A stretch of 31,041 nt of DNA. Source: a virus. Each line of letters starts with the position of its first letter. The first letter of the stretch is position 1. Position numbers and translations under genes: made by a program. Under the pieces are notes generated by a model. The model saw only the letters and a program-made list of their open reading frames with translations. It was not told where the DNA came from and ran no database searches. This document shows positions 2,288 through 13,364 of the stretch, in pieces. The stretch is taken from positions 1 to 31,041 of IMG/VR virus record IMGVR_UViG_3300010885_050382. One strand, given 5' to 3'.

Positions 2288-2468
2288 CGTCCACTCCTAA
2301 TGTTCTAGATTGCTTAGCCTTGTTGATATCAACAAACTTTTTACTGGTGCTTTTCAGGACAAAGAAGAACTGGCTGTCGCGCCTGATTTCGTCGATCACT
2401 TCCCCTTCTTTGGTGACCAGCACCCAGTGGTTCTCGCCCCACTCTTTCCATCGCAAAGTTGTTCTCAT
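2271..2468 (-). CDS. Small phage protein, unknown function
   Basis: 65 residues, starting MRTTLRWKEWGENHWVLVT. The ATG at 2468 has GGAGAA upstream and overlaps the TGA of the preceding Mom-like gene (ATGA). It looks like a short beta-rich fold (HWVLVTKEGEVIDEIRR, QFFFVLKS) with a lysine-rich tail. It lies between the Mom-like gene and the Cro-like gene and is coupled to both. Function is unknown. Confidence 0.7.
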   Translation of the reverse strand: MRTTLRWKEWGENHWVLVTKEGEVIDEIRRDSQFFFVLKSTSKKFVDINKAKQSRTLGVDDGKRN

Positions 2469-3106
2469 ACTATTTCTCCATGGGCTACCTTAATGCATAA
2501 ATCAGGGCCGTCGTTATACCTTTTTTGGTCACACTTTGGGTAGGTCTTCAAGACTGGGTAATTCAATTTGCTTTTCATGCTGTGGCACTGTCGCCTGTCC
2601 CCGACAAACTGGAAATACCGGTGTTTTTCCATAGGCTTAACCATCTCAATGCCGTTTTCTTTTGCCCATCTTGTTGGGTTAGTAATTCCTCTGTCCCTCA
2701 GCGTCATTGGATGCGTCCGTTTGCCGTCAACAATGTAGGCCTTATCGTGGCTTTTGGTAGCACCTGTATAAATAATTCCGCAATGGTTCTGTTCCATGTC
2801 GGCGTAGCTGATAACTGCGCACGGCTTCGGCTCCAACAACTTCAAACTGTTAGCCACTAAAAAGCTAGAAGCGTTTTTTGTTTTGGACTGGACAACTACA
2901 CGTGCCAACTCGTAAAGCCTAAATTCCCGATCCTTAAAAGCGTGCTTTTGGATCGGTGGTGATGGTTGGCCATAAACGGCAATGCCTGTGATATGGCCCT
3001 CCTCTTCAAGGCCAAATCCAGCCCAAAAAATGGATGCCCTTCGGCTGTAGTGTTTTTGCAAAACAAAAGCATCTGCAACGCTTTTTAAAATAGGAATTAT
3101 TTTCAT
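2465..3106 (-). CDS. Mom-like DNA adenine modification protein (GNAT-fold)
   Basis: 213 residues from the ATG at 3106, which has a perfect AAAGGAG site. Phage Mu Mom converts adenine in phage DNA to a carbamoylmethyl form that resists host restriction. Features seen that fit this family: HYSRR at 19-23, YGQPSPPI at 45-52, the RLYELARVVV strand at 63-72 followed by NASSFLVANSLKLL, SYAD at 100-103 followed by a conserved His (108) and GIIY, DGKRTHPMTLRDRG at 127-140, and KHRYF at 161-165. The fold is related to GNAT acyltransferases, so a different acyl-type transferase is the main alternative. Compared with family members as I remember them, a short segment after GIIY (usually a QA-NW-type stretch) is missing. 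It is an internal gene of the leftward, probably early, operon, as expected for a protection function. Confidence 0.75.
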   Translation of the reverse strand: MKIIPILKSVADAFVLQKHYSRRASIFWAGFGLEEEGHITGIAVYGQPSPPIQKHAFKDREFRLYELARVVVQSKTKNASSFLVANSLKLLEPKPCAVISYADMEQNHCGIIYTGATKSHDKAYIVDGKRTHPMTLRDRGITNPTRWAKENGIEMVKPMEKHRYFQFVGDRRQCHSMKSKLNYPVLKTYPKCDQKRYNDGPDLCIKVAHGEIV

Positions 3107-3221
3107 ACCTTCTCCTTTATTAGGTGTCGTCTCTCCGACTGTCACGCATTTGCCGCCCGCGTTTGACGCACTTTACCGCCCCGCTGGAAATTACAGAAAA
3201 AGCCTTGGGGCAGATAGCAAT

Positions 3222-5200: not shown

Positions 5201-5423
5201 GGTGGGTAGCCTCCTCGATTGAGCTATACAGCTCTTCTATGCCACTTACAAGGACGTCAAGGGGCAGGTCCATGGACCGGGCAAGAAGAGTGGTGACCCG
5301 CATCAGGGAAATCAGGGCTGTCATGGGGTCTTCGGTCAAGGAAGACACGTGGGCCAGGAGTTCGGCTGCATGGTCTTTCGAGTCGTCTATCAGGTTGTGA
5401 AGGTGCTCATTATTTACGCTCAT
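5187..5423 (-). CDS. First gene of the leftward operon, unknown function
   Basis: 78 residues, mostly helical and acidic (IDDSKDHAAELLAHVSSL, ALISLMRVTTLLARSM, GIEELYSSIEEATHHA). The ATG at 5423 is preceded by AAGAAAGGATAGAGCAA, nearly the same initiation box used by the rightward early-type genes at 7219, 7536 and 8842. It is the promoter-proximal gene of the operon and therefore likely one of the first proteins made. No family recognised. Confidence 0.7.
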   Translation of the reverse strand: MSVNNEHLHNLIDDSKDHAAELLAHVSSLTEDPMTALISLMRVTTLLARSMDLPLDVLVSGIEELYSSIEEATHHAAY

Positions 5424-5842
5424 TTGCTCTATCCTTTCTTAAGTTACACGGGATGTGTGAAGAGATTATAAGCGGTACTGTGTTTGGATGGCAAGTACAA
5501 GAAGTGGTTTATTTTGTAGGGGTTTACCCTTAGGAAGGGGTGGTTTTGTAAGTTTGGAGTCAGGCTATATATACTTTTCCCAGAAAAAAAAGATTTTTAT
5601 TTTTTTAAAACCATTTAGGGGTAATTTGATGAAATGGAGTAATAGTGAGTATCCATGCGGGTTGTAGCTGTGACAGTACATCACGTTGACTTTTAGGTGT
5701 AAGCTTTTTCAAGGGGGGTTCGTGGGATGCTTTTTGAAAAAACTTTTTTTATTTTTAGTAGAAAAAAGACTATAGGGGCTGGGCCTTGCCTCTTGGAGCT
5801 GCTTCTGGTACACTTGGTTCAATGAGTTACAGGAGCGAACAG
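5424..5842. other. AT-rich divergent control region
   Basis: About 420 bases without a convincing gene separate the leftward operon from the rightward genes. It holds the leftward promoter, one possible rightward promoter (TTGTAA 5546-5551, 16 bases, TATATA 5568-5573), a small CCCTT/AAGGG hairpin near 5528-5540, and two A/T tracts (about 5581-5611 and 5731-5766). It is the natural site for operators of the Cro-like protein and possibly for replication initiation. No iterated short repeats were seen by eye. Confidence 0.55.
5458..5494 (-). promoter_or_regulatory. Sigma70-like promoter of the leftward operon
   Basis: On the minus strand, TTGCCA (5494-5489) and a perfect TATAAT (5470-5465) are 18 bases apart. 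The predicted mRNA would start near 5458 and carry a small ACAC/GTGT stem before the AAAGGATAGAG ribosome site of the first gene. The order promoter, hairpin, box matches the rightward cassettes. Confidence 0.6.
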
Positions 5843-6058
5843 ATGTTTCAAATCGAGTCGGGAGTAGAGATGCCGGTGGGCCGCTCAAAGTACCCGTTTG
5901 GCGACATGCTGCCCGGGGACTCTATCCGTTTTGTTGATGCCAGACAGGCCAACAGTGCCCGGGTGTCCGCGCTGCGGTTTGTCCGATCACATGTCCCCGA
6001 TTGGTCGTTCCAGTTGCGTCGAGTAGAAGACGGCTGGCGGCTGTGGAGAATCTCTTGA
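5843..6058 (+). CDS. Small conserved phage protein (YPF..M..GDS type)
   Basis: 71 residues starting MFQIESGVEMP; the ATG at 5843 has AGGAG seven bases upstream, better than ATGs at 5786 or 5822. The pattern KYPFGDMLPGDSIRF, then SARVSALRFVRSH, then FQLRRVEDGWRLWRIS is a very common small phage family with a conserved basic C-terminal beta hairpin. Function is unknown; a nucleic-acid role is possible from the basic surface. Its stop TGA overlaps a TTG that could start the terminase small subunit. Confidence 0.75.
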   Translation: MFQIESGVEMPVGRSKYPFGDMLPGDSIRFVDARQANSARVSALRFVRSHVPDWSFQLRRVEDGWRLWRIS

Positions 6059-6075
6059 CTAGGCGAGATGTTTGG

Positions 6076-6735
6076 ATGGTCCCTCCTGTTATTGGCGACA
6101 AGGCGCAAAAGCGCCTTGCGACAGAAGTGGCCCCTTTGCGCAAGCAGCGGAAGGTCTTGAATGCCAAGGAATGGAAGTTTGTCACCGAGCTGGTGAGCGG
6201 CGACGGCCGCGTCACCATGAAGGAGGCCGCCATCCGGGCCGGGTATAAACCCACCAGTGCCTCGGTCATGGCAAACAAGCTGACGAGCCCCAACGTCAAC
6301 CCTCACGTGGTGGCCGCGATTCAGGCCTATCGGGCCGAGCTCAACAGCAAGTACAACACCTCGTACGAACGGCACATGAAGGACCTGCAGCTCATCCGCG
6401 ACAAGGCTTTAGAGGCTGGGGCCTATGCTGCTGCCGTTCAGGCCGAATATCGCCGCGGGCAGGCCTTAGGATCGATCTATATCGACCGCAAGGAGATCAG
6501 GCACGGGACGATTGATTCAATGTCGAAAGAAGAAGTGCAGCGCAAGCTGGACGAGCTCAAGGCCCTGTATGGTGGACCACCCCCGAGCGCGCTGATTGAT
6601 GCCAGCACCGGCCAGGTGATTGAAAGCATTGACCGTGAAAAAGACCCCATTTTTGTTTCTCCAGTGGCAGAACCTCCGCCCGATATTTTTGAACGGGACA
6701 ATGATTTGGAATCCGGCGACCATGTCGACGCCTGA
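6076..6735 (+). CDS. terS: Terminase small subunit
   Basis: 219 residues from the ATG at 6076. A TTG at 6055, overlapping the previous stop and with GGAG six bases before it, is a fair alternative. It recognises phage DNA for packaging and hands it to the large subunit. Residues about 30-85 (AKEWKFVTELVSGDGRVTMKEAAIRAGY..TSASVMANKLTS..V..HVVAAI) are the HTH-type DNA-binding domain of small terminases. The middle is a long helical oligomerisation region, and the SMSKEEVQRKLDEL stretch near residue 160 is common in this family. The tail is acidic and proline-rich. It is unusual that the large subunit lies 5 kb downstream beyond an island of early-type genes. Confidence 0.8.
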   Translation: MVPPVIGDKAQKRLATEVAPLRKQRKVLNAKEWKFVTELVSGDGRVTMKEAAIRAGYKPTSASVMANKLTSPNVNPHVVAAIQAYRAELNSKYNTSYERHMKDLQLIRDKALEAGAYAAAVQAEYRRGQALGSIYIDRKEIRHGTIDSMSKEEVQRKLDELKALYGGPPPSALIDASTGQVIESIDREKDPIFVSPVAEPPPDIFERDNDLESGDHVDA

Positions 6736-7144
6736 AGCCGCCTTTGCTGCCCGGGTTCGCGATGGTTTGCGGCCATTGGGGGTAGACACCGAGCGAATCG
6801 AGAATCGCGTCAATTTGGGCGTGTCTGACATGCTGGTGGGTGCAGGTGACCGCTTTGTCTCAATCGAGCTCAAGGCCGTGTCGCGTGGCCTGAAAATAGC
6901 GCTTCGACCGCACCAGATCGCTTTTCTGACGCGCCATGCTGCCCATGGCCGCCCATGCTACGTGCTCGTGCATCAGATCAGCACGGTCGTTCGCCCGGGC
7001 CGCATTGCTTTGTACCATGGCCGACAGGCAATTGCCCTTGCTGAGCAGGGCTTGCGTCTTGACCCCGTGGCCGCGTGGCCCAATCGGGGCATGCCATGGC
7101 AGGAGCTGGCCGACATCTTATCAGGGAAAACCCCTATCAAATAA
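6722..7144 (+). CDS. PD-(D/E)XK nuclease (VRR-NUC-like)
   Basis: 140 residues from the ATG at 6722, overlapping the end of the terminase small subunit by 14 bases. Catalytic pattern seen: Asp36 in GVSDMLVG, Glu49-x-Lys51 in VSIELKAVS, and Gln65 in LRPHQIAFL, followed by the GRPCYVLVH strand. This is the layout of small stand-alone VRR-NUC/resolvase-like nucleases, which cut branched or structured DNA. Its position beside terminase suggests processing of concatemers or junctions before packaging. Recombination or degradation of host DNA is the alternative. Confidence 0.75.
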   Translation: MSTPEAAFAARVRDGLRPLGVDTERIENRVNLGVSDMLVGAGDRFVSIELKAVSRGLKIALRPHQIAFLTRHAAHGRPCYVLVHQISTVVRPGRIALYHGRQAIALAEQGLRLDPVAAWPNRGMPWQELADILSGKTPIK

Positions 7145-7145
7145 G

Positions 7146-7196
7146 TTGCGCGACTGTTAATTTAGGTGTATACTGGTGGAACCGGAACATCTCCGG
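7146..7196 (+). promoter_or_regulatory. Promoter plus 5' hairpin before the NinX-like gene
   Basis: TTGCGC (7146-7151), 17 bases, TATACT (7169-7174). The spacer contains GACTGTTAATT, which recurs exactly in the promoter at 8770-8798. A CCGGA/TCCGG hairpin (7182-7196) would lie at the start of the mRNA. The initiation box AAAGGATAGAG follows directly before the ATG. Confidence 0.7.
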
Positions 7197-7218
7197 CAAC
7201 CTAGAAAGGATAGAGAAA

Positions 7219-7509
7219 ATGAAAACAGCAGAACTGACAGGCGCTGCCCTTGATTGGGCGGTACATATTGCACTGCACGGCGCGTGCGAAGGCTACGCCG
7301 AACACGAATACACAACCGACTGGTCACAAGGTGGGCCGATTATCCACCAAGAGCATATGGAGTTCGATTGGGACGAGGCGACGCAGATGTACTCCGCCTA
7401 CGACGGTGTGCATGGTGGCACAGGGCAGACGCACCTCATTGCAGCTATGCGCTGCTACGTGGCAAGCAAACTAGGTGACGAGGTGGAAATACCTCAAGAG
7501 CTTGCATAA
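7219..7509 (+). CDS. NinX-like protein (DUF2591)
   Basis: 96 residues from the ATG at 7219, which has the AAAGGATAGAG box. The pattern MKTAELTGAALDWAV at the start, YTTDWSQGGPIIHQEHMEF in the middle and HLIAAMRCYVASKLGDEVEIP at the end is the DUF2591 family, named after P22 NinX. It is common in phage early or nin regions and its biochemical role is not known. It is the first gene behind its own promoter and is followed by two more small genes in the same transcript. Confidence 0.85.
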   Translation: MKTAELTGAALDWAVHIALHGACEGYAEHEYTTDWSQGGPIIHQEHMEFDWDEATQMYSAYDGVHGGTGQTHLIAAMRCYVASKLGDEVEIPQELA

Positions 7510-7535
7510 TTCACAACCCAGAAAGGATAGAGAAA

Positions 7536-7757
7536 ATGGAAACGCATTTTTACGCGTCAAGCGTAGCCGATTGGGCCACTACGAACGAAACCCGAGACCT
7601 TAGGGCATTGCTTAAGATCATGGATAAATTCGGGTACTCCTACAATCTGTTTTTTGTGCCTGTGGCGCATACTGCCAATTATGAAATCAAAGCATATCAA
7701 CCTCAAGTTGAGGGCGCGCAGTGGCTTGGTCATTTTGAGGTAAAGGGCAAAAAATGA
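7536..7757 (+). CDS. Small phage protein, unknown function
   Basis: 73 residues starting METHFYASSVADWATT. The ATG at 7536 has the same AGAAAGGATAGAGAAA box as the NinX-like gene. It appears alpha/beta (RALLKIMDKFGYSYNLFFVPV, YEIKAYQPQVEGAQWLGHFEV). No family recognised. Its TGA overlaps the ATG of the next gene. Confidence 0.7.
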   Translation: METHFYASSVADWATTNETRDLRALLKIMDKFGYSYNLFFVPVAHTANYEIKAYQPQVEGAQWLGHFEVKGKK

Positions 7758-7927
7758 ACCCTATCGTCGTGACTTTTTACGTTCCGCCGATTCCATGGCG
7801 TGGCGCTGATTATTGCGCTACCCGCTATGGATATGATTATCTGGACCCTTTGAGTTACGGTGAAACAGAAAGCGAAGCGGTAGCAGCGCTGCTTGAAATG
7901 GAGGGGCTATCGAGCCCTGATTTTTAA
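7754..7927 (+). CDS. 57-residue acidic protein, unknown function
   Basis: Starts MNPIVVTFYVPPIPWRG at an ATG overlapping the previous stop (ATGA) and ends LLEMEGLSSPDF. It is tyrosine-rich in the middle and acidic at the C-terminus. The overlap, consistent codon use and lack of any other gene here support it. It has no ribosome site of its own and probably depends on coupling. Confidence 0.6.
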   Translation: MNPIVVTFYVPPIPWRGADYCATRYGYDYLDPLSYGETESEAVAALLEMEGLSSPDF

Positions 7928-7947
7928 TAGTAAAAATTAATTGGACT

Positions 7948-7979
7948 GCAGCACCTATTGCCATAAAAATAGGTGCTGC
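7948..7979 (+). other. 12-base-pair hairpin in the leader of the Cys-rich gene
   Basis: A perfect 12-base-pair stem (7948-7959 with 7968-7979, arms GCAGCACCTATT and AATAGGTGCTGC) with an 8-base loop lies between the 57-residue gene and the AGAGGATAGAG box at 8009. It has no T-tract, so it is more likely an mRNA 5' or processing structure than a terminator. No good promoter is seen just before it. Confidence 0.7.
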
Positions 7980-8008
7980 TGTTTATCAACCTAGAGAGGA
8001 TAGAGATT

Positions 8009-8713
8009 ATGCTTAAAACCGTCGCTATTTCGGCCAATCGCAAAACCGGCCCCATCGCTGTAACGTACCGCTCCGGCGAACATGAGACATATGGCACGTG
8101 TCCGACAACGTGCCAACTGCACCCCAAAAGTGAAACCGGCACGTCATTGGTGGACGTGGATTATTTGGCCGCCTTGTCTGATGCTGTACCGCGTAACGGC
8201 CAGGCTTGGACTTATTCGCATTTTGCGGCCGAAGCTTTGCCAATGCCAGCACCGGGTAAAACCGTGTTCAATGTGTCATGCGACACTATGGCCGAAGCTG
8301 TTCGGGCTATCGAGCTAGGCCGCCCGGCGGTGTATGCTGCCCCGAAAACCATGGCCGACAGTTTCCCCATGGTTCACCGTGGCGTTAGGTTTGCACAATG
8401 CCCGGCCGAATTGTCCGAATCGTTTACGTGTCACCAGTGTGGAAATGGCCGCCCATTGTGCGCACGTGGCGACCGGGATTATGTTGTTGTTTTTGTGGCC
8501 CATGGCAGTGGCGCAAAACGCGTCGGTACTGACGAAAAGGGCGGATGCTATGCGGCCAGTGGTCCTACCGCGATACAGTGGCACGGCACCAAAAAAACCG
8601 GCGCATCGAATGATTCGCAGGCCATCGTTAAATTCGCTCGCTCGCTGCCGTCCGGTTCCATGCTGCGCCACCACGTGGCCGGAGACATTGGCCGGGAGAT
8701 GTCCGCATGTTGA
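8009..8713 (+). CDS. Cysteine-rich phage protein, unknown function
   Basis: 234 residues from the ATG at 8009, preceded by AGAGGATAGAGATT. The start MLKTVAISANRKTGPIAVTYR is followed by CPTTC (about residues 31-35) and later by CHQCGNGRPLC and GGCYA, a set of cysteines that could bind zinc. Related proteins in other phages and plasmids share the NRKTGP...CP..C start but have no known role as far as I recall. The size and the conserved cysteines suggest an enzyme or nucleic-acid binder. It sits between NinX-like and DUF932 genes in the early-type island. Confidence 0.75.
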   Translation: MLKTVAISANRKTGPIAVTYRSGEHETYGTCPTTCQLHPKSETGTSLVDVDYLAALSDAVPRNGQAWTYSHFAAEALPMPAPGKTVFNVSCDTMAEAVRAIELGRPAVYAAPKTMADSFPMVHRGVRFAQCPAELSESFTCHQCGNGRPLCARGDRDYVVVFVAHGSGAKRVGTDEKGGCYAASGPTAIQWHGTKKTGASNDSQAIVKFARSLPSGSMLRHHVAGDIGREMSAC

Positions 8714-8772
8714 TAGCCCTAGCGGTATTCTTAATACTTTGGCTAATAGTTGACTTATTTAATAGGGATTAG
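8707..8772 (+). CDS. Possible 21-residue single-pass membrane peptide
   Basis: The frame MLIALAVFLILWLIVDLFNRD is one hydrophobic helix with a polar C-terminal tail. The ATG has GGGAG eight bases upstream and overlaps the end of the Cys-rich gene, so coupled translation is plausible. Its TAG falls within the -35 region of the next promoter. Too short for ordinary gene finding, so confidence is limited. Confidence 0.45.
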   Translation: MLIALAVFLILWLIVDLFNRD

Positions 8773-8819
8773 CGAGACTGTTAATTATGGTCTATAATTC
8801 ATTCACCGGGATTATCCGG
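8769..8819 (+). promoter_or_regulatory. Promoter plus 5' hairpin before the DUF932 gene
   Basis: A perfect TATAAT (8793-8798) has TAGCGA 17 bases upstream and the same GACTGTTAATT spacer segment as the promoter at 7146. A CCGG-based hairpin (8806-8819) follows at the predicted mRNA start, then the GAAAGGATAGAG box before the ATG at 8842. Confidence 0.7.
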
Positions 8820-8841
8820 CAACACTGAAAGGATAGAGAAA

Positions 8842-9801
8842 ATGGCACATATGATCGACACCACCACCGGCACAGCCGCTATTGCTTACGCTGGTAATAC
8901 CCCATGGCATGGCTTGGGCCAAGCCTTGACACCTGATGCATCAATTGAGACGTGGACACGTGAAGCCGGGCTAAATTACACCGTGAACGAAGCTCCGGTT
9001 TTGTTTCAGACTGACGCGACAACAGCCCCGGAACAGTTCAAGGGCCGGAAAGTATTACACCGGAGCGACACCGGCGGCGCGCTGGCTGTAGTGTCTGACG
9101 GTTACCGCGTGGTTCAACCGGCCGAGGTCATGGGCTTTTTTGGAAAGCTTGTTGAGCTGGGCGGCTTTCAAATGGAAACCGCCGGAGTGCTCAGCCATGG
9201 CCGCCGGGTCTGGGCTCTGGCGAAAGTAAATGAGGGAGCCGATATCGTAGAGGGCGACACCGTCCGGCCTTATGTCTTGCTGGGCACGTCATACGATGGA
9301 ACCATGGCAACCGTGGCGAAATTTACATCGATCCGCGTGGTGTGCAATAACACCATCACCGCAGCACTGGGCCGGGAAAATGCCGGTACTGTCCGCGTGT
9401 TGCATAGCGAGCGCTTTGATGCTGATGCTGTACGGTTAGAGCTGGGCATTGTGGGCGATAACTGGGAACGCTTTTTGGTTCAATCGCGCAAATTGTCCGG
9501 GGAAACCATGGATAAAATTCAGGCCGATTCATTCGTCACTGCTCTGCTGCAGCCGTTCCACACCAGCAAAATCGAATTGAATCAGACCCGCGGATATAAG
9601 AGAATTTTTGAGTTATTCAATGGCCAGGCTATTGGCGCGAACATTCCCGGCGTGGCCGGTACACGTTGGGCAATGCTGAACGCTGTTACTGAATTGGTCG
9701 ACCATGAGCGTGGCCGCGGCAACAATACCCGAATGGAATCGGCATGGTTTGGAACCGGTGCAGCATTGAAAAATAGGGCGTTAGAGTTGCTTAGTGCTTA
9801 A
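8842..9801 (+). CDS. DUF932 phage/plasmid-like protein
   Basis: 319 residues from the ATG at 8842 with the GAAAGGATAGAGAAA box. The family is recognised by the start (GNTPWHGLGQALTP), KVLHRSDTGGALAVVSDGYRVVQP, and the FTSIRVVCNNTITAAL segment, and by its near-typical length. DUF932 proteins are common on plasmids and phages, often near anti-restriction or replication genes. The molecular function is not established. Having its own promoter with a perfect -10 box suggests strong expression. It is the largest protein of the early-type island. Confidence 0.9.
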   Translation: MAHMIDTTTGTAAIAYAGNTPWHGLGQALTPDASIETWTREAGLNYTVNEAPVLFQTDATTAPEQFKGRKVLHRSDTGGALAVVSDGYRVVQPAEVMGFFGKLVELGGFQMETAGVLSHGRRVWALAKVNEGADIVEGDTVRPYVLLGTSYDGTMATVAKFTSIRVVCNNTITAALGRENAGTVRVLHSERFDADAVRLELGIVGDNWERFLVQSRKLSGETMDKIQADSFVTALLQPFHTSKIELNQTRGYKRIFELFNGQAIGANIPGVAGTRWAMLNAVTELVDHERGRGNNTRMESAWFGTGAALKNRALELLSA

Positions 9802-10036
9802 CCTATCGATACCGGGCCGCCAATAGCGTGGCCCTATCGAGGGCAAACTATGCAAAAAATGCATAATTGCCCGGTTACTTTTGATATAGCTAAACCAGCG
9901 CCGCGGTCCCTGCCGTTATACGCCAAAACCGTGGCGCGCGGTCCGCGATAGGCACGGGCCGCGGAGCCCGGCCCGTGCCTATCGCGCCGGGCGGCGCGAT
10001 AGAAAAATACAATGGCCCGGGCCCCGGGGCCGGGGC
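9802..10036. other. Palindrome-rich non-coding region A
   Basis: No gene is seen here. It holds a two-tier hairpin at 9841-9872 (GGGCAA/TTGCCC outside, TATGCA/TGCATA inside), a perfect 16-base-pair stem at 9945-9960 with 9970-9985, and a perfect 10-base-pair stem at 9979-9988 with 9993-10002 that shares seven bases with the previous one. A very GC-rich near-palindrome follows (about 10015-10036) and abuts the next -10 box. CTATCG/CGATAG units recur throughout. Confidence 0.75.
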
Positions 10037-10069
10037 TATAATAGTGACACTGGTGGCAGCCGCCACCGG
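10037..10069 (+). promoter_or_regulatory. Promoter (-10) plus 5' hairpin before the gene at 10093
   Basis: A perfect TATAAT (10037-10042) is followed by AGTGACACT, close to the sequence after two later -10 boxes. No convincing -35 is seen; a GC-rich palindrome occupies that place. A GGTGGC/GCCACC hairpin (10050-10069, extended by one C-G and one T-G pair) lies at the predicted mRNA start. Confidence 0.6.
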
Positions 10070-10092
10070 GTAACTCAGAAAGGATATTGATC

Positions 10093-10461
10093 ATGGGCGA
10101 TAGAGTATTATTTCAAGTGGTGCGGACGGCCAGTAAAGAATTCGGCCCCGTTGTTTACTGTCATTGGTCCGGGGCCCGGGCCCCGGAGATTGTCCGCAAG
10201 CTGGCCGCCCGAATGGCCAGCAGGACCGGGGACATTGACTATGCGACCGCGCGACTGGTGCAGGAATGCACCGCGCCGGACACTGACGGCGCGCTAAGCT
10301 TTGGGGTATCCAATGCCCCGGCCATGTTGACCGCGGAAGATTCCCACGGCGACGCTGGCGTCGTGCTGATTGACTGCGACAGCTTTAGGTGTGAATGTCT
10401 GGGCGGGTATCTGGCCACTGGCCCCGACGGTTTCCCCGTTGATCGGCAGGTGGCAGCATGA
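10093..10461 (+). CDS. Phage protein, unknown function
   Basis: 122 residues from the ATG at 10093 after AGAAAGGATATTGATC; a TTG two codons upstream is less likely. It has a beta-rich start (MGDRVLFQVVRTASKEFGPVVYCHWSG), a helix (APEIVRKLAARMASR) and a C-terminal strand (GVVLIDCDSFRCECLGGY). No family recognised. Its stop overlaps the next ATG (ATGA). It has its own promoter. Confidence 0.7.
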   Translation: MGDRVLFQVVRTASKEFGPVVYCHWSGARAPEIVRKLAARMASRTGDIDYATARLVQECTAPDTDGALSFGVSNAPAMLTAEDSHGDAGVVLIDCDSFRCECLGGYLATGPDGFPVDRQVAA

Positions 10462-10700
10462 TCGTTCAACACTACTGCACCAACTACGCCAACAAACCCA
10501 GCGTGACCACGCTGCGCGCTGCGCTGCGCAAGGCCGCCGCCCAAGGCGGCGACTTTATCCAGTTGAGCTGGGGCGAGAATCAGATCACGGTAGAACGGAC
10601 TAACTACGGGTGGACGGGCACCGGATGGATTGGAAAGAACGGGGGCCAAGACCTGGCCCATGAATTAGAGCTTGCGCACCGGAAAAAAGATGTGTTATAA
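10458..10700 (+). CDS. Small phage protein, unknown function
   Basis: 80 residues starting MIVQHYCTNYANKPSVTTLRAALRKAA. A helix is followed by beta strands (DFIQLSWGENQITVERTNYGWTGTGWIG) and a basic C-terminus. The start overlaps the previous stop. Its own TAA lies inside the -10 box of the next promoter, an example of how tightly these cassettes are packed. Family not recognised. Confidence 0.7.
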   Translation: MIVQHYCTNYANKPSVTTLRAALRKAAAQGGDFIQLSWGENQITVERTNYGWTGTGWIGKNGGQDLAHELELAHRKKDVL

Positions 10701-10728
10701 TAGTCTCACTGCTGGCGGCCGCCAGCAG
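10672..10728 (+). promoter_or_regulatory. Promoter plus 5' palindrome before the gene at 10755
   Basis: TTGCGC (10672-10677), 18 bases, TATAAT (10696-10701) with an extended TG one base before it. The 20-base perfect palindrome CTGCTGGCGGCCGCCAGCAG (10709-10728) starts about eight bases after the -10 box and would form the 5' end of the mRNA. TATAATAGTCTCACTG is identical to the promoter at 11086. Confidence 0.75.
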
Positions 10729-10754
10729 TCAACCAACCATAGAGGATAGAGATC

Positions 10755-11051
10755 ATGACAATTGAAACCGCAACACCCAGCAGCATGGAAACGCTGGCCG
10801 GAATGTTTGACACCCTGGTCGACCTGGTGGCCGCCCGGGTGCTGGCTAAACTTGACAAAAAACTGGACAACAAACTAGAGCATTTTGCCGAGCACGACCT
10901 GGACGGCAAGATCGACGAATGGGCGGCCAACTTCCTGCAAGACCGCTTCAGTGAGTACGTGACAATTGACACCGACGACATTGATCTTGACGATAAGGTT
11001 TTAGATGCAGTTAAAAATATTGACTTTACCGTCCGAATTACTGCCGACTAA
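10755..11051 (+). CDS. Acidic coiled-coil protein, unknown function
   Basis: 98 residues from the ATG at 10755 after AGAGGATAGAGATC. It is strongly acidic. Residues about 10-50 form amphipathic helices (LAGMFDTLVDLVAARVLAKLDKKLDNKLEHF), followed by aspartate-rich segments (TIDTDDIDLDDKVLD). The charge pattern resembles DNA-mimic inhibitors, but that is only a guess from composition. It is the only gene of its cassette. Confidence 0.7.
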   Translation: MTIETATPSSMETLAGMFDTLVDLVAARVLAKLDKKLDNKLEHFAEHDLDGKIDEWAANFLQDRFSEYVTIDTDDIDLDDKVLDAVKNIDFTVRITAD

Positions 11052-11060
11052 TAAAAGTAG

Positions 11061-11116
11061 TTGACACGGGGCTAAAGCCCCGTGATATAATAGTCTCACT
11101 GTGCAATAGTGCACAG
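11061..11116 (+). promoter_or_regulatory. Promoter with spacer palindrome and 5' hairpin before the gene at 11143
   Basis: A consensus TTGACA (11061-11066) and TATAAT (11086-11091) are 19 bases apart, with TG one base before the -10. The spacer holds an 8-base-pair inverted repeat (CACGGGGC...GCCCCGTG, 11065-11084), a possible operator or terminator of the gene before. A CTGTGC/GCACAG hairpin (11099-11116) follows at the predicted mRNA start. Confidence 0.75.
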
Positions 11117-11142
11117 TACAACCCTAGAAAGAAGAGAGCATT

Positions 11143-11424
11143 ATGACGAAGATCATCACAATCGACGGTAGCAAATACGCACTGCCTGAGAGCATGGCCA
11201 TTAAGGATGTCCAGGCCCTGGCCGGGTTCTTGGTCACGCTGACCAAGATAGATTATGAGTACTGCTATGGCCAGGAAGATAACGCGTTCTACGCGTGCAA
11301 CGGTGCACAGATCAGCATCGGTGAGCAGGATCTGGTCACCAAGGCCGAGGCCAAGGCCCGGTCGACTAAGTCACGCGAAGAGTACGAGGCACGCAAGGCA
11401 GCCGAGGCAACGGCAGCGGCCTAG
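11143..11424 (+). CDS. Small phage protein, unknown function
   Basis: 93 residues from the ATG at 11143 after AGAAAGAAGAGAGCATT. A beta-rich front half (MTKIITIDGSKYALPE, YEYCYGQEDNAFYACNGAQISIG) is followed by an alanine- and charge-rich helix (KAEAKARSTKSREEYEARKAAEATAAA). No family recognised. It is the last gene of the early-type island and is followed by a clear terminator. Confidence 0.7.
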   Translation: MTKIITIDGSKYALPESMAIKDVQALAGFLVTLTKIDYEYCYGQEDNAFYACNGAQISIGEQDLVTKAEAKARSTKSREEYEARKAAEATAAA

Positions 11425-11443
11425 ATTTCAGAACCCAGATGCA

Positions 11444-11469
11444 AGCCCCGGCAGCCCCGGGGCTTTTTT
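11444..11469 (+). terminator. Rho-independent terminator
   Basis: Stem AGCCCCGG (11444-11451) with CCGGGGCT (11457-11464), five-base loop, then a run of T (11464-11469). It closes the last early-type cassette. Confidence 0.85.
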
Positions 11470-11479
11470 GTGGCCAGGT

Positions 11480-11510
11480 GCATAGCCCGGGCCTATCGGG
11501 GCCTAGGCCC
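11480..11510 (+). repeat. 31-base direct repeat, copy 1
   Basis: GCATAGCCCGGGCCTATCGG followed by GGCCTAGGCCC is repeated exactly at 11541-11571. Each copy holds a CCCGGG core and the left part of a 22-base palindrome; in this copy the palindrome (11494-11515) is perfect. Confidence 0.9.
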
Positions 11511-11540
11511 CGATAAATATATTTACCTTGACAACTGGCA

Positions 11541-11571
11541 GCATAGCCCGGGCCTATCGGGGCCTAGGCCC
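11541..11571 (+). repeat. 31-base direct repeat, copy 2
   Basis: Identical over 31 bases to 11480-11510 and spaced 61 bases from it. Just past the repeat one C has become T, so the 22-base palindrome (11555-11576) would pair through a single G-U if transcribed. Confidence 0.9.
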
Positions 11572-11597
11572 TGATAGCTGATAGCCTATAGCTATGG

Positions 11598-11616
11598 CGA
11601 TAGGCTATGCCTATCG
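11598..11616 (+). other. Hairpin that competes with the terminator at 11611
   Basis: CGATAGGC (11598-11605), loop TAT, GCCTATCG (11609-11616). Six bases of its right arm are also the left end of the terminator stem, so the two structures cannot form together. Confidence 0.7.
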
Positions 11617-11639
11617 GCGGCGCGCCGCCGATAGTTTTT
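11611..11639 (+). terminator. Strong palindromic terminator
   Basis: A perfect 24-base palindrome (11611-11634, arms CTATCGGCGGCG and CGCCGCCGATAG) is followed by TTTTT. It is the second terminator between the island and the head genes. Confidence 0.8.
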
Positions 11640-11891
11640 CTCAATTTTTCCCTCTATAGGTGGTTGGCGGGGGTGGGTGGGCCCGCATACCTCTCTGTGC
11701 TACTACGTACCTTTGACTTTAAGACAGGGGGAGGGCCATAAACAGCCCGTCAGCTACAGCGAAGAGGCGTACCCTGATTTCATACCCACAATTTGCCCAA
11801 GAGACTTGGACCCCCGCCCCCTAAAATAGGCCCCCTTGTTTGCAAAAATCAAAAGCCCGGTTAATATTTACAAAATTCAAAACCTGGTCCT

Positions 11892-13364
11892 ATGCCCAAT
11901 ATTCCACCCAAAGATGCTGAAGAAGAGATGCTGCGCTTGCAGCTCCGTCTGCAATTACTCGATGCCCACGAGAAGGCAACCACTGGCTTTCTTGACTTCT
12001 GCCGATACGTGTGGCCCGAGATGATCGTCGGGGAACACCACAAGATCATTGCTAAAGCCTTGGACCGCGTAGTGAGCGGCGAGTGCAAACGCCTGATGAT
12101 CGCGATGCCGCCACGGCACGGTAAATCCCAGATGGGCAGCTATCTGTTCCCTGCCTACATCATGGGCAAAAAACCTGACTCAAAACTCATTGTTGGCTCG
12201 CACACCGCGGACCTCGCACAGCGCTTCGGCCGGATGATCCGTAATCTTGTAGACGATGAGAAATACAAGGAGCTCTTCCCCGGCATGACCCTGTCCATCG
12301 ACTCCAAGGCCGCAGGCCGGTGGAACACGGCCCAAGGCGGTGAAGCCTTTTTCATTGGTAAGGGCGGTGCAATGACCGGGCGCGGCGGTAATATTGTTGT
12401 GCTGGACGACATCTTGGACGAGCAGGACGCTCTGTCTGATACGGCTATGGAGAACACGTGGGAGTGGTACACCTCCGGCCCGCGTCAACGTCTGCAACCA
12501 GGCGGCGCAATCATTGTGATCAACACCCGTTGGAAGACAGATGACCTCTCTGGCCGCCTGTTAAAACAGCAGGGCTACCTCAAGTCTGATCAGTGGGAGG
12601 TCCTGGAGTTCCCGGCCATCCTGCCTTCTGGTAATCCACTCTGGCCGGAGTACTGGCCCATCGATGAACTGGAAAAAGTCAAGGTATCCATTGGCCTGAA
12701 GAAATGGAACGCGCAGTGGCAGCAGCAACCTACGAACGATGAAGGTGCTGTTTTAAAACGCACCTGGTGGCGCAAGTGGACTGATCCTGAACCGCCGCAA
12801 TGCGAGTACCTTTTGCAGACCATGGACACCGCCTACAGCAAAAAGGAAACGGCTGACTTCTCGGTCATCGCAACGTGGGGCGTGTTCACCCCTGACATTG
12901 ACTCGGGCCCCAACCTCATTCTGTTGAACGTGCGCAAGGGCCGGTGGGATTTCCCCGAGCTCAAGCGGATCGCGAAGGATGAGTACCAGTACTGGAAGCC
13001 CGACAATGTCTTGATCGAGGCCAAGGCCACCGGCACGCCACTCCAGCAGGAACTCCGTAAGATCGGGGTCCCCGTCACGATGTTCTCGCCCGGCGGCCGT
13101 CGGCAGAATCAAGACAAGCTCAGCCGCGCGAACGCCGTAGCCCCTTTGTTGGAATCCGGCATGGTCTGGTATCCTGAGGGAATGGAATGCTGTGAGGAGC
13201 TTGTCGAAGAGTGCGCTGCTTTTCCCAACGGCAATAACGATGACCAGGTGGACGTGACAACCATGGCTTTGCAAAGATTTCGTCAGGGCAACTTTATTGC
13301 GCTGGACTCTGATGATCGGGAAGACGATAAATCGGATGAACGGGCAGTGGTTGAGTATTACTGA
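11892..13364 (+). CDS. terL: Terminase large subunit (packaging ATPase/nuclease)
   Basis: 490 residues, normal length. The N-terminal ATPase pumps DNA into the prohead and the C-terminal RNase H-like nuclease cuts it. Seen: Walker A MPPRHGKS at 72-79; Walker B IVVLDD at 168-173 followed by acidic residues; the TRWKTDDLSGRLL coupling region near 212-224. Nuclease acidic residues are Asp312 (TMDTAY), Glu376 (VLIEAKATG) and the Asp cluster 450-454 (NDDQVD). The ATG at 11892 has no clear Shine-Dalgarno site, unusual beside its neighbours, so initiation may rely on the leader. It is separated from the small subunit by about 5 kb. Confidence 0.95.
   Translation: MPNIPPKDAEEEMLRLQLRLQLLDAHEKATTGFLDFCRYVWPEMIVGEHHKIIAKALDRVVSGECKRLMIAMPPRHGKSQMGSYLFPAYIMGKKPDSKLIVGSHTADLAQRFGRMIRNLVDDEKYKELFPGMTLSIDSKAAGRWNTAQGGEAFFIGKGGAMTGRGGNIVVLDDILDEQDALSDTAMENTWEWYTSGPRQRLQPGGAIIVINTRWKTDDLSGRLLKQQGYLKSDQWEVLEFPAILPSGNPLWPEYWPIDELEKVKVSIGLKKWNAQWQQQPTNDEGAVLKRTWWRKWTDPEPPQCEYLLQTMDTAYSKKETADFSVIATWGVFTPDIDSGPNLILLNVRKGRWDFPELKRIAKDEYQYWKPDNVLIEAKATGTPLQQELRKIGVPVTMFSPGGRRQNQDKLSRANAVAPLLESGMVWYPEGMECCEELVEECAAFPNGNNDDQVDVTTMALQRFRQGNFIALDSDDREDDKSDERAVVEYY

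Follow-up and report, generated by a model that had tools for sequence, protein, structure and literature searches.

A sigma70-type promoter with a predicted 5'-terminal hairpin recurs as a cassette between the terminase genes of an aquatic phage and its relatives

According to work cited in PMC3997798, 5' stem-loops stabilise the ompA and papA mRNAs of Escherichia coli. In phages, strongly conserved extended ribosome-site boxes stand ahead of some non-structural genes; these SAS/ESAS motifs were described in cluster K mycobacteriophages (PMC3203893) and in Microbacterium cluster EF phages (PMC7302621). About half of the cluster K sites have an inverted repeat immediately ahead of them; the ESAS repeats are sequence-conserved, and the authors found no support for RNA pairing (PMC3203893). 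Here we describe a set of expression cassettes in a 31,041-base virus record (IMG/VR IMGVR_UViG_3300010885_050382, called the window below and analysed over its whole length), in which a sigma70-type promoter is followed by a hairpin and by a conserved ribosome-site box. No report of such an arrangement in these phages was found in the open literature.

Like the ompA and papA leaders, the cassettes have a hairpin at the 5' terminus or close to it, few unpaired 5' bases and a ribosome site that the hairpin does not include. As expected of 5'-terminal stabilisers, their stems lie within a few bases of the predicted 5' end and appear to be selected for structure over sequence. The ompA/papA type concerns single genes, whereas here a set of small phage promoters is gathered in one island and the arms change freely. 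The likeness to SAS/ESAS lies in the conserved box ahead of some genes, but the SAS motif is GGGATAGGAGCCC or GGGAAAGGACCCC and the cassette box has another sequence. The repeats behave in the opposite manner: those of the cassettes are not sequence-conserved, their arms differing among units and orthologues, and they covary and are locked to the −10 box. When phage T7 leaders were folded, the first base was paired in phi3.8, phi10, phi13, phi17 and phi2.5 and unpaired in several other T7 transcripts. Late leaders such as phi10 (GGGAGACC..GGUUUCCC) resemble the cassettes in their paired first base; however, T7 uses its own RNA polymerase, whose promoter sequence fixes part of the arm, while the cassettes have a sigma70-type promoter and unconstrained arms.

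The preliminary description of this DNA had proposed five rightward units built on one plan, and all five exist, in the order −10 box, six bases, hairpin, short linker, AGAAAGGATAGAG-type ribosome site and ATG (Table 1). Its promoter positions were less exact: 10037 is indeed a −10 box, but 7146, 10672 and 11061 lie near −35 elements and 8769 falls just upstream of a −10 box. It had also listed three further box sites; the one before 5423 proved to be more than claimed, a full leftward cassette of the same plan in weaker form, while the gene at 7536 lacks a cassette promoter and that at 8009 has no 5' hairpin. The hairpin arms of the units have little in common except their position. Their predicted folding is strong in units 3–5 (z −2.3 to −2.9) and moderate in unit 1 (z −2.1), and the linker after the stem is of CAAC type in cassettes 1, 2, 4 and 5 and GTAAC in cassette 3. 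No Rfam family matched the window at gathering score. A simple promoter scan of the window returned 9 sigma70-like sites where 11.5 are expected by chance; the scan was therefore uninformative, and the evidence for the cassettes comes from comparison.

About 150 related loci were used for this comparison. Every ATG with a box upstream was taken and hairpins were ignored, which gave 477 distinct upstream stretches, 259 of them with a strong −10 box picked by score. A stem of at least five pairs was present in 213 of the 259, and 179 of these stems begin 3–7 nucleotides after the −10 box, where shuffling placed about 8. A separate scan starting from exact −10 boxes gave the same sharp peak of stem position. 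The seventh base after the −10 box is A in 70% of cases and is preceded by C in 64%; A preceded by C is the usual transcription initiator. With the transcript start (+1) predicted at this base, 208 of 231 distinct leaders have 0–1 unpaired 5' base. After thinning to 58 dissimilar leaders the count was 45, or 49 with the start one base later, against 21 in shuffled sequences. The hairpin would thus be the first structure of the mRNA, as had been proposed. In the sister clade of Phage DSL-LC04, 0–1 unpaired 5' base was found in 38 of 40 distinct leaders despite different −10 boxes (TAAAAT, TATTAT) and different ribosome boxes (AGAAAGCGAG, CAGGAGA), so the hairpin is better kept than the box. Full cassette matches numbered 4, 3 and 5 in three near-complete genomes, all within ~5 kb beside the large terminase gene, and a control scan with the hairpin shifted by 14–30 nucleotides gave 0–1 matches per genome versus the 3–5 real ones. 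The arrangement is far beyond chance. From these sequences, a whole lineage of freshwater phages, widespread and including at least two deep clades, appears to have made a 5'-terminal stem-loop a standard module on its sigma70 promoters, and the comparison is strong enough for the module to be defined. In HTVC023P, HTVC027P and 023Pt_psg01, no cassette was seen upstream of the genes inspected there.

In order to follow the stems pair by pair, one length class (−10 box, six bases, 20 bases, then CAAC), picked by length and flanks, was aligned. Most of the 40 candidates fell in a perfect 8-pair register, the rest being chance −10 boxes or hairpins of other length. In 22 distinct aligned hairpins 100% of cells were paired, compared with 71% in shuffles and 21–33% in slid registers, and all eight pairs were changed on both sides, with 20 further pair types; as this alignment was drawn from in-register sequences, the complete pairing is partly due to selection but the double changes are not. 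The hairpins before the DUF932 gene in the DUF932 subclade were 96% paired, with 4 pairs changed on both sides. The preliminary description had suspected selection on structure and named paired changes in related phages as the test of it; they were present in the 22-hairpin set, the DUF932 set and the DSL-LC04 clade. Together, these comparisons strongly support the view that the hairpin is selected for its structure rather than for its sequence.

The ribosome-site box was less fixed than had been supposed. Seven exact copies of AGGATAGAG occur in the window, six of these ahead of a start codon, and 8 sites are found with one mismatch allowed (3.2 expected). The box does recur, as described, but its sequence varies, being AAAGGATATTG in unit 3 and AAAGAAGAGAG in unit 5. 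The related claim that late genes use AAGGAG held for several of them; many have weaker sites, and none has the box. The segment AGAAAGGA and the 3' tail UCCUUUCU of a Burkholderiales-type 16S rRNA are complementary throughout; the TAGAG part has no pairing partner, as in SAS motifs. One relative of the phage lies on a contig binned into a Rhodoferax metagenome assembly, which makes a Burkholderiales host plausible for the phage of the window. The tail GGATCACCTCCTTTCT was present in 2 of 21 genomes of that assembly's genus, with three copies in one; it was not found in the Rhodoferax assembly itself, which is probably incomplete. Across the same 21 genomes, six sites of the box pattern were found on the phage contig and a single one outside it. 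By its sequence, the box is an extended Shine-Dalgarno element, phage-specific in its fixed form. It is not specific to the cassette, since it is also used without a promoter and other boxes accompany the same hairpin in the sister clade. Another promoter class, TTGACT-17-TATACT followed by CGTGGTAGTTCTTTTACGGGAGTTAA, has another ribosome site and no obvious 5' hairpin (related loci L051, L053-L059 and others); it offers a natural contrast to the cassettes inside the same phages.

We consider it probable that each cassette joins a host sigma70 promoter to a hairpin at the very 5' end of the RNA, which protects the mRNA against 5'-end-dependent decay and leaves the ribosome site accessible. The first mRNA base would open, or almost open, a stable stem-loop. 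RppH of E. coli needs unpaired bases at the 5' end. The B. subtilis enzyme likewise needs at least two unpaired 5' bases (PMC3997798). With 0–1 unpaired 5' base, conversion of the 5' triphosphate by RppH would be blocked, so that a blunt hairpin would protect the triphosphate, and RNase E would be denied its 5'-monophosphate route. The mostly unpaired CAAC-type linker and the extended Shine-Dalgarno element would keep translation initiation open. The expected result would be a longer life of the short mRNAs from the accessory island between the terminase genes; mRNAs of small genes would profit most, provided that they are transcribed early and from one genome copy. By analogy with the known 5'-terminal stem-loops, mRNA shielding is the most likely function of the hairpin. 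Early expression of the island genes is likely in view of the syntenic genes gp33 and gp34 of pelagiphage HTVC027P, which lie between its terminase genes and reportedly reach high expression in the early to middle phase of infection (PMC12753301), although this is one of the phages in which no cassette was seen upstream of the inspected genes. As many different 5' hairpins of a single geometry, the cassettes form a natural library in which 5'-end-dependent decay can be tested in bacteria other than E. coli; they also allow transcript starts of uncultured phages to be predicted from sequence alone.

Several observations weigh against this interpretation. The hairpin of cassette 2 is weak taken alone (z −1.3) and the 4-bp leftward hairpin alone is not significant (−2.5 kcal/mol, z 0.02). 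In relatives, certain promoters with a box have a short leader that lacks a hairpin. The related loci have common ancestry, and thinning removes only part of this effect. The ratio of G.U to A.C pairs in the stems is 20:3 by one definition but only 8:4 by another. Lastly, the stem is followed by a T run in one DUF932 subclade, a feature equally compatible with attenuation.

It is unlikely that the hairpin mainly insulates translation, in which case it would keep the fixed linker and ribosome site single-stranded irrespective of the upstream sequence, or act in ribosome standby, and mRNA stability would come second. In favour of such a role, it is the linker and box that are conserved in sequence, ~10 nucleotides separate the end of the hairpin from the box in every unit, and in 103 of 231 predicted leaders none of the 7 Shine-Dalgarno bases is paired. 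Such a role needs no stem that starts exactly at +1, yet the stem start is fixed relative to the −10 box, and genes with a box and no hairpin exist. We regard it as very unlikely that the palindromes are DNA operators over +1, through which a repressor of the phage or of the host would coordinate the island. A palindrome at +1 occupies the classic operator position, some promoters have a second one in the spacer, and the phage encodes a small Cro/CI-like protein (2027-2287). The arms, however, differ within one phage and among orthologous promoters, so that one protein could not read them all, and no common sequence was found at the window promoters or at orthologous promoters; changing arms without a common motif are therefore evidence against an operator. 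The lean of non-Watson-Crick pairs to G.U over A.C, weaker by the second definition, also favours strand-specific RNA action over DNA, in a supportive rather than decisive way. A promoter-proximal attenuator, pause or terminator that switches the island genes is hardly probable: TTTTT follows the stem in one DUF932 subclade, but in most cases the stem leads into CAAC, ACAAC or TCAAC, a T run directly after the stem was met in that one relative subclade and nowhere in the window, termination after ~20 nucleotides of RNA would be unusual, and no antiterminator arrangement is visible. Least probable of all is an RNA operator for a phage RNA-binding regulator, since the AGCC/GGCC loops that recur in one large cassette set give way in other units to ATAG, GATTAT, ACATC, GGGC and nine-base loops, and the stem sequences are free.

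A second palindrome, perfect or nearly so, fills the −35/−10 spacer in ~55 of the 259 units (~20%; ~6 expected), its end touching or adjoining the −10 box; it usually comes directly behind the stop codon of the preceding gene. Examples are found in cassette 5, in related locus L164 (7060-7085 and 7430-7455) and in many relatives. In TTGACA-19-TATAAT promoters 89% of its cells are paired, with double changes in six of eight pairs; no G.U excess was seen (2 G.U, 4 A.C). The palindrome occurs where the previous gene ends 25–50 bases before the −10 box (47 of 67 cases) and is rare with a gap of 50–150 bases. It may serve the previous message as a 3' hairpin, belong to the promoter, or do both. A MerR-type promoter (19-bp spacer with dyad) was considered and rejected: one set has the matching geometry, but the arms are variable and spacings differ elsewhere. 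It is also conceivable, though we think it quite improbable, that two hairpins flanking the −10 box in a subset of units cut the island into single-gene mRNAs, each bounded by hairpins, and that the promoter also acts as a signal for processing and 3'-end formation. The upstream hairpin would then lie in the spacer right after the previous stop codon and the downstream one would start at +1, so that read-through RNA would consist of hairpin, AU-rich UAUAAU linker and hairpin. The single-gene mRNAs would arise if the linker were cut or if initiation were combined with trimming of 3' ends. The spacer palindrome raises the new question of promoters that are also RNA 3' elements.

Table 1. Cassettes and related box sites in the window.
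Feature	Position	Strand	Promoter	Hairpin or palindrome	Box	Start and gene
Leftward cassette	5421-5494	-	-35 TTGCCA 5494; -10 TATAAT 5470-5465	4-bp hairpin ACAC-ATCCC-GTGT 5458-5446	AAGAAAGGATAGAG 5440-5427	ATG 5423
Cassette 1	7169-7221	+	-10 TATACT 7169-7174	CCGGA-ACATC-TCCGG 7182-7196	AGAAAGGATAGAG	ATG 7219; NinX-like gene 7219-7509
Box without cassette promoter	7524-7538	+			AGGATAGAG	internal gene of unit 1, 7536-7757
Palindrome, no 5' hairpin cassette	7948-8011	+	possible TTGGAC-17-TAAAAA (by inspection only)	GCAGCACCTATT..AATAGGTGCTGC, overlapping the possible promoter	AGAGAGGATAGAG	ATG 8009; DUF7227 protein 8009-8713
Cassette 2	8793-8844	+	-10 TATAAT 8793-8798	CCGG-GATTAT-CCGG 8806-8819	GAAAGGATAGAG	ATG 8842; DUF932 protein 8842-9801
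Cassette 3	10015-10095	+	-10 TATAAT 10037-10042, abutted by imperfect GC palindrome 10015-10036	CTGGTGGC-AGCC-GCCACCGG 10050-10069	AGAAAGGATATTG	ATG 10093
Cassette 4	10696-10757	+	-10 TATAAT 10696-10701	ACTGCTGGC-GGCC-GCCAGCAGT 10708-10729	AGAGGATAGAG	ATG 10755
Cassette 5	11061-11145	+	-35 TTGACA 11061-11066; spacer palindrome CACGGGGC-TAAA-GCCCCGTG 11065-11084; extended -10 TGATATAAT, -10 11086-11091	ACTGTGCA-ATAG-TGCACAGT 11098-11117	AGAAAGAAGAGAG	ATG 11143

Grouped by its terminase, portal and structural genes, the window is a 31-kb part of a ~60-kb aquatic phage. Among named relatives, the terminase is nearest to that of Phage DSL-LC04 (63.5% identity), followed by pelagiphages HTVC027P and HTVC023P (50–56%); megablast of 20 kb of the window against known phages gave no match. 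The nearest relative found is a 59.9-kb contig whose terminase and DUF932 proteins are 94–95% identical to those of the window. The cassettes are confined to an island of short genes flanked by the two terminase genes, the small one at 6061 and the large one at 11892; the gene at 5423, behind the leftward cassette, is divergent. Between cassette 1 and gene 8009 lie three small genes (the NinX-like one and two others, 7219-7927), with the box copy at 7524. In genome G002, a 94% relative, the first cassette stands directly before the homologue of gene 8009. Genes seem to be plugged in behind the cassette.

Beside the leftward cassette, the divergent non-coding DNA at 5480-5820 is rich in AT and has long runs of T and of A. 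GC-rich palindromes such as CTATCGGGGCCTAGGCCCCGATA are dense in the intergenic stretches 9801-10036 and 11425-11640, several copies being alike. The small Cro/CI-like protein is of the helix-turn-helix type and is encoded on the minus strand; a relative of the phage is called virulent. A Mom-like DNA modification protein (PHROG 1384) is encoded at 2465-3145, also on the minus strand. Upstream of the large terminase gene, a G-rich element, GGCGGGGGTGGGTGGGCCCGC (11660-11685), recurs in many relatives (e.g. L024, L057, L061 and L066) and could be a G-quadruplex or a packaging-related site.

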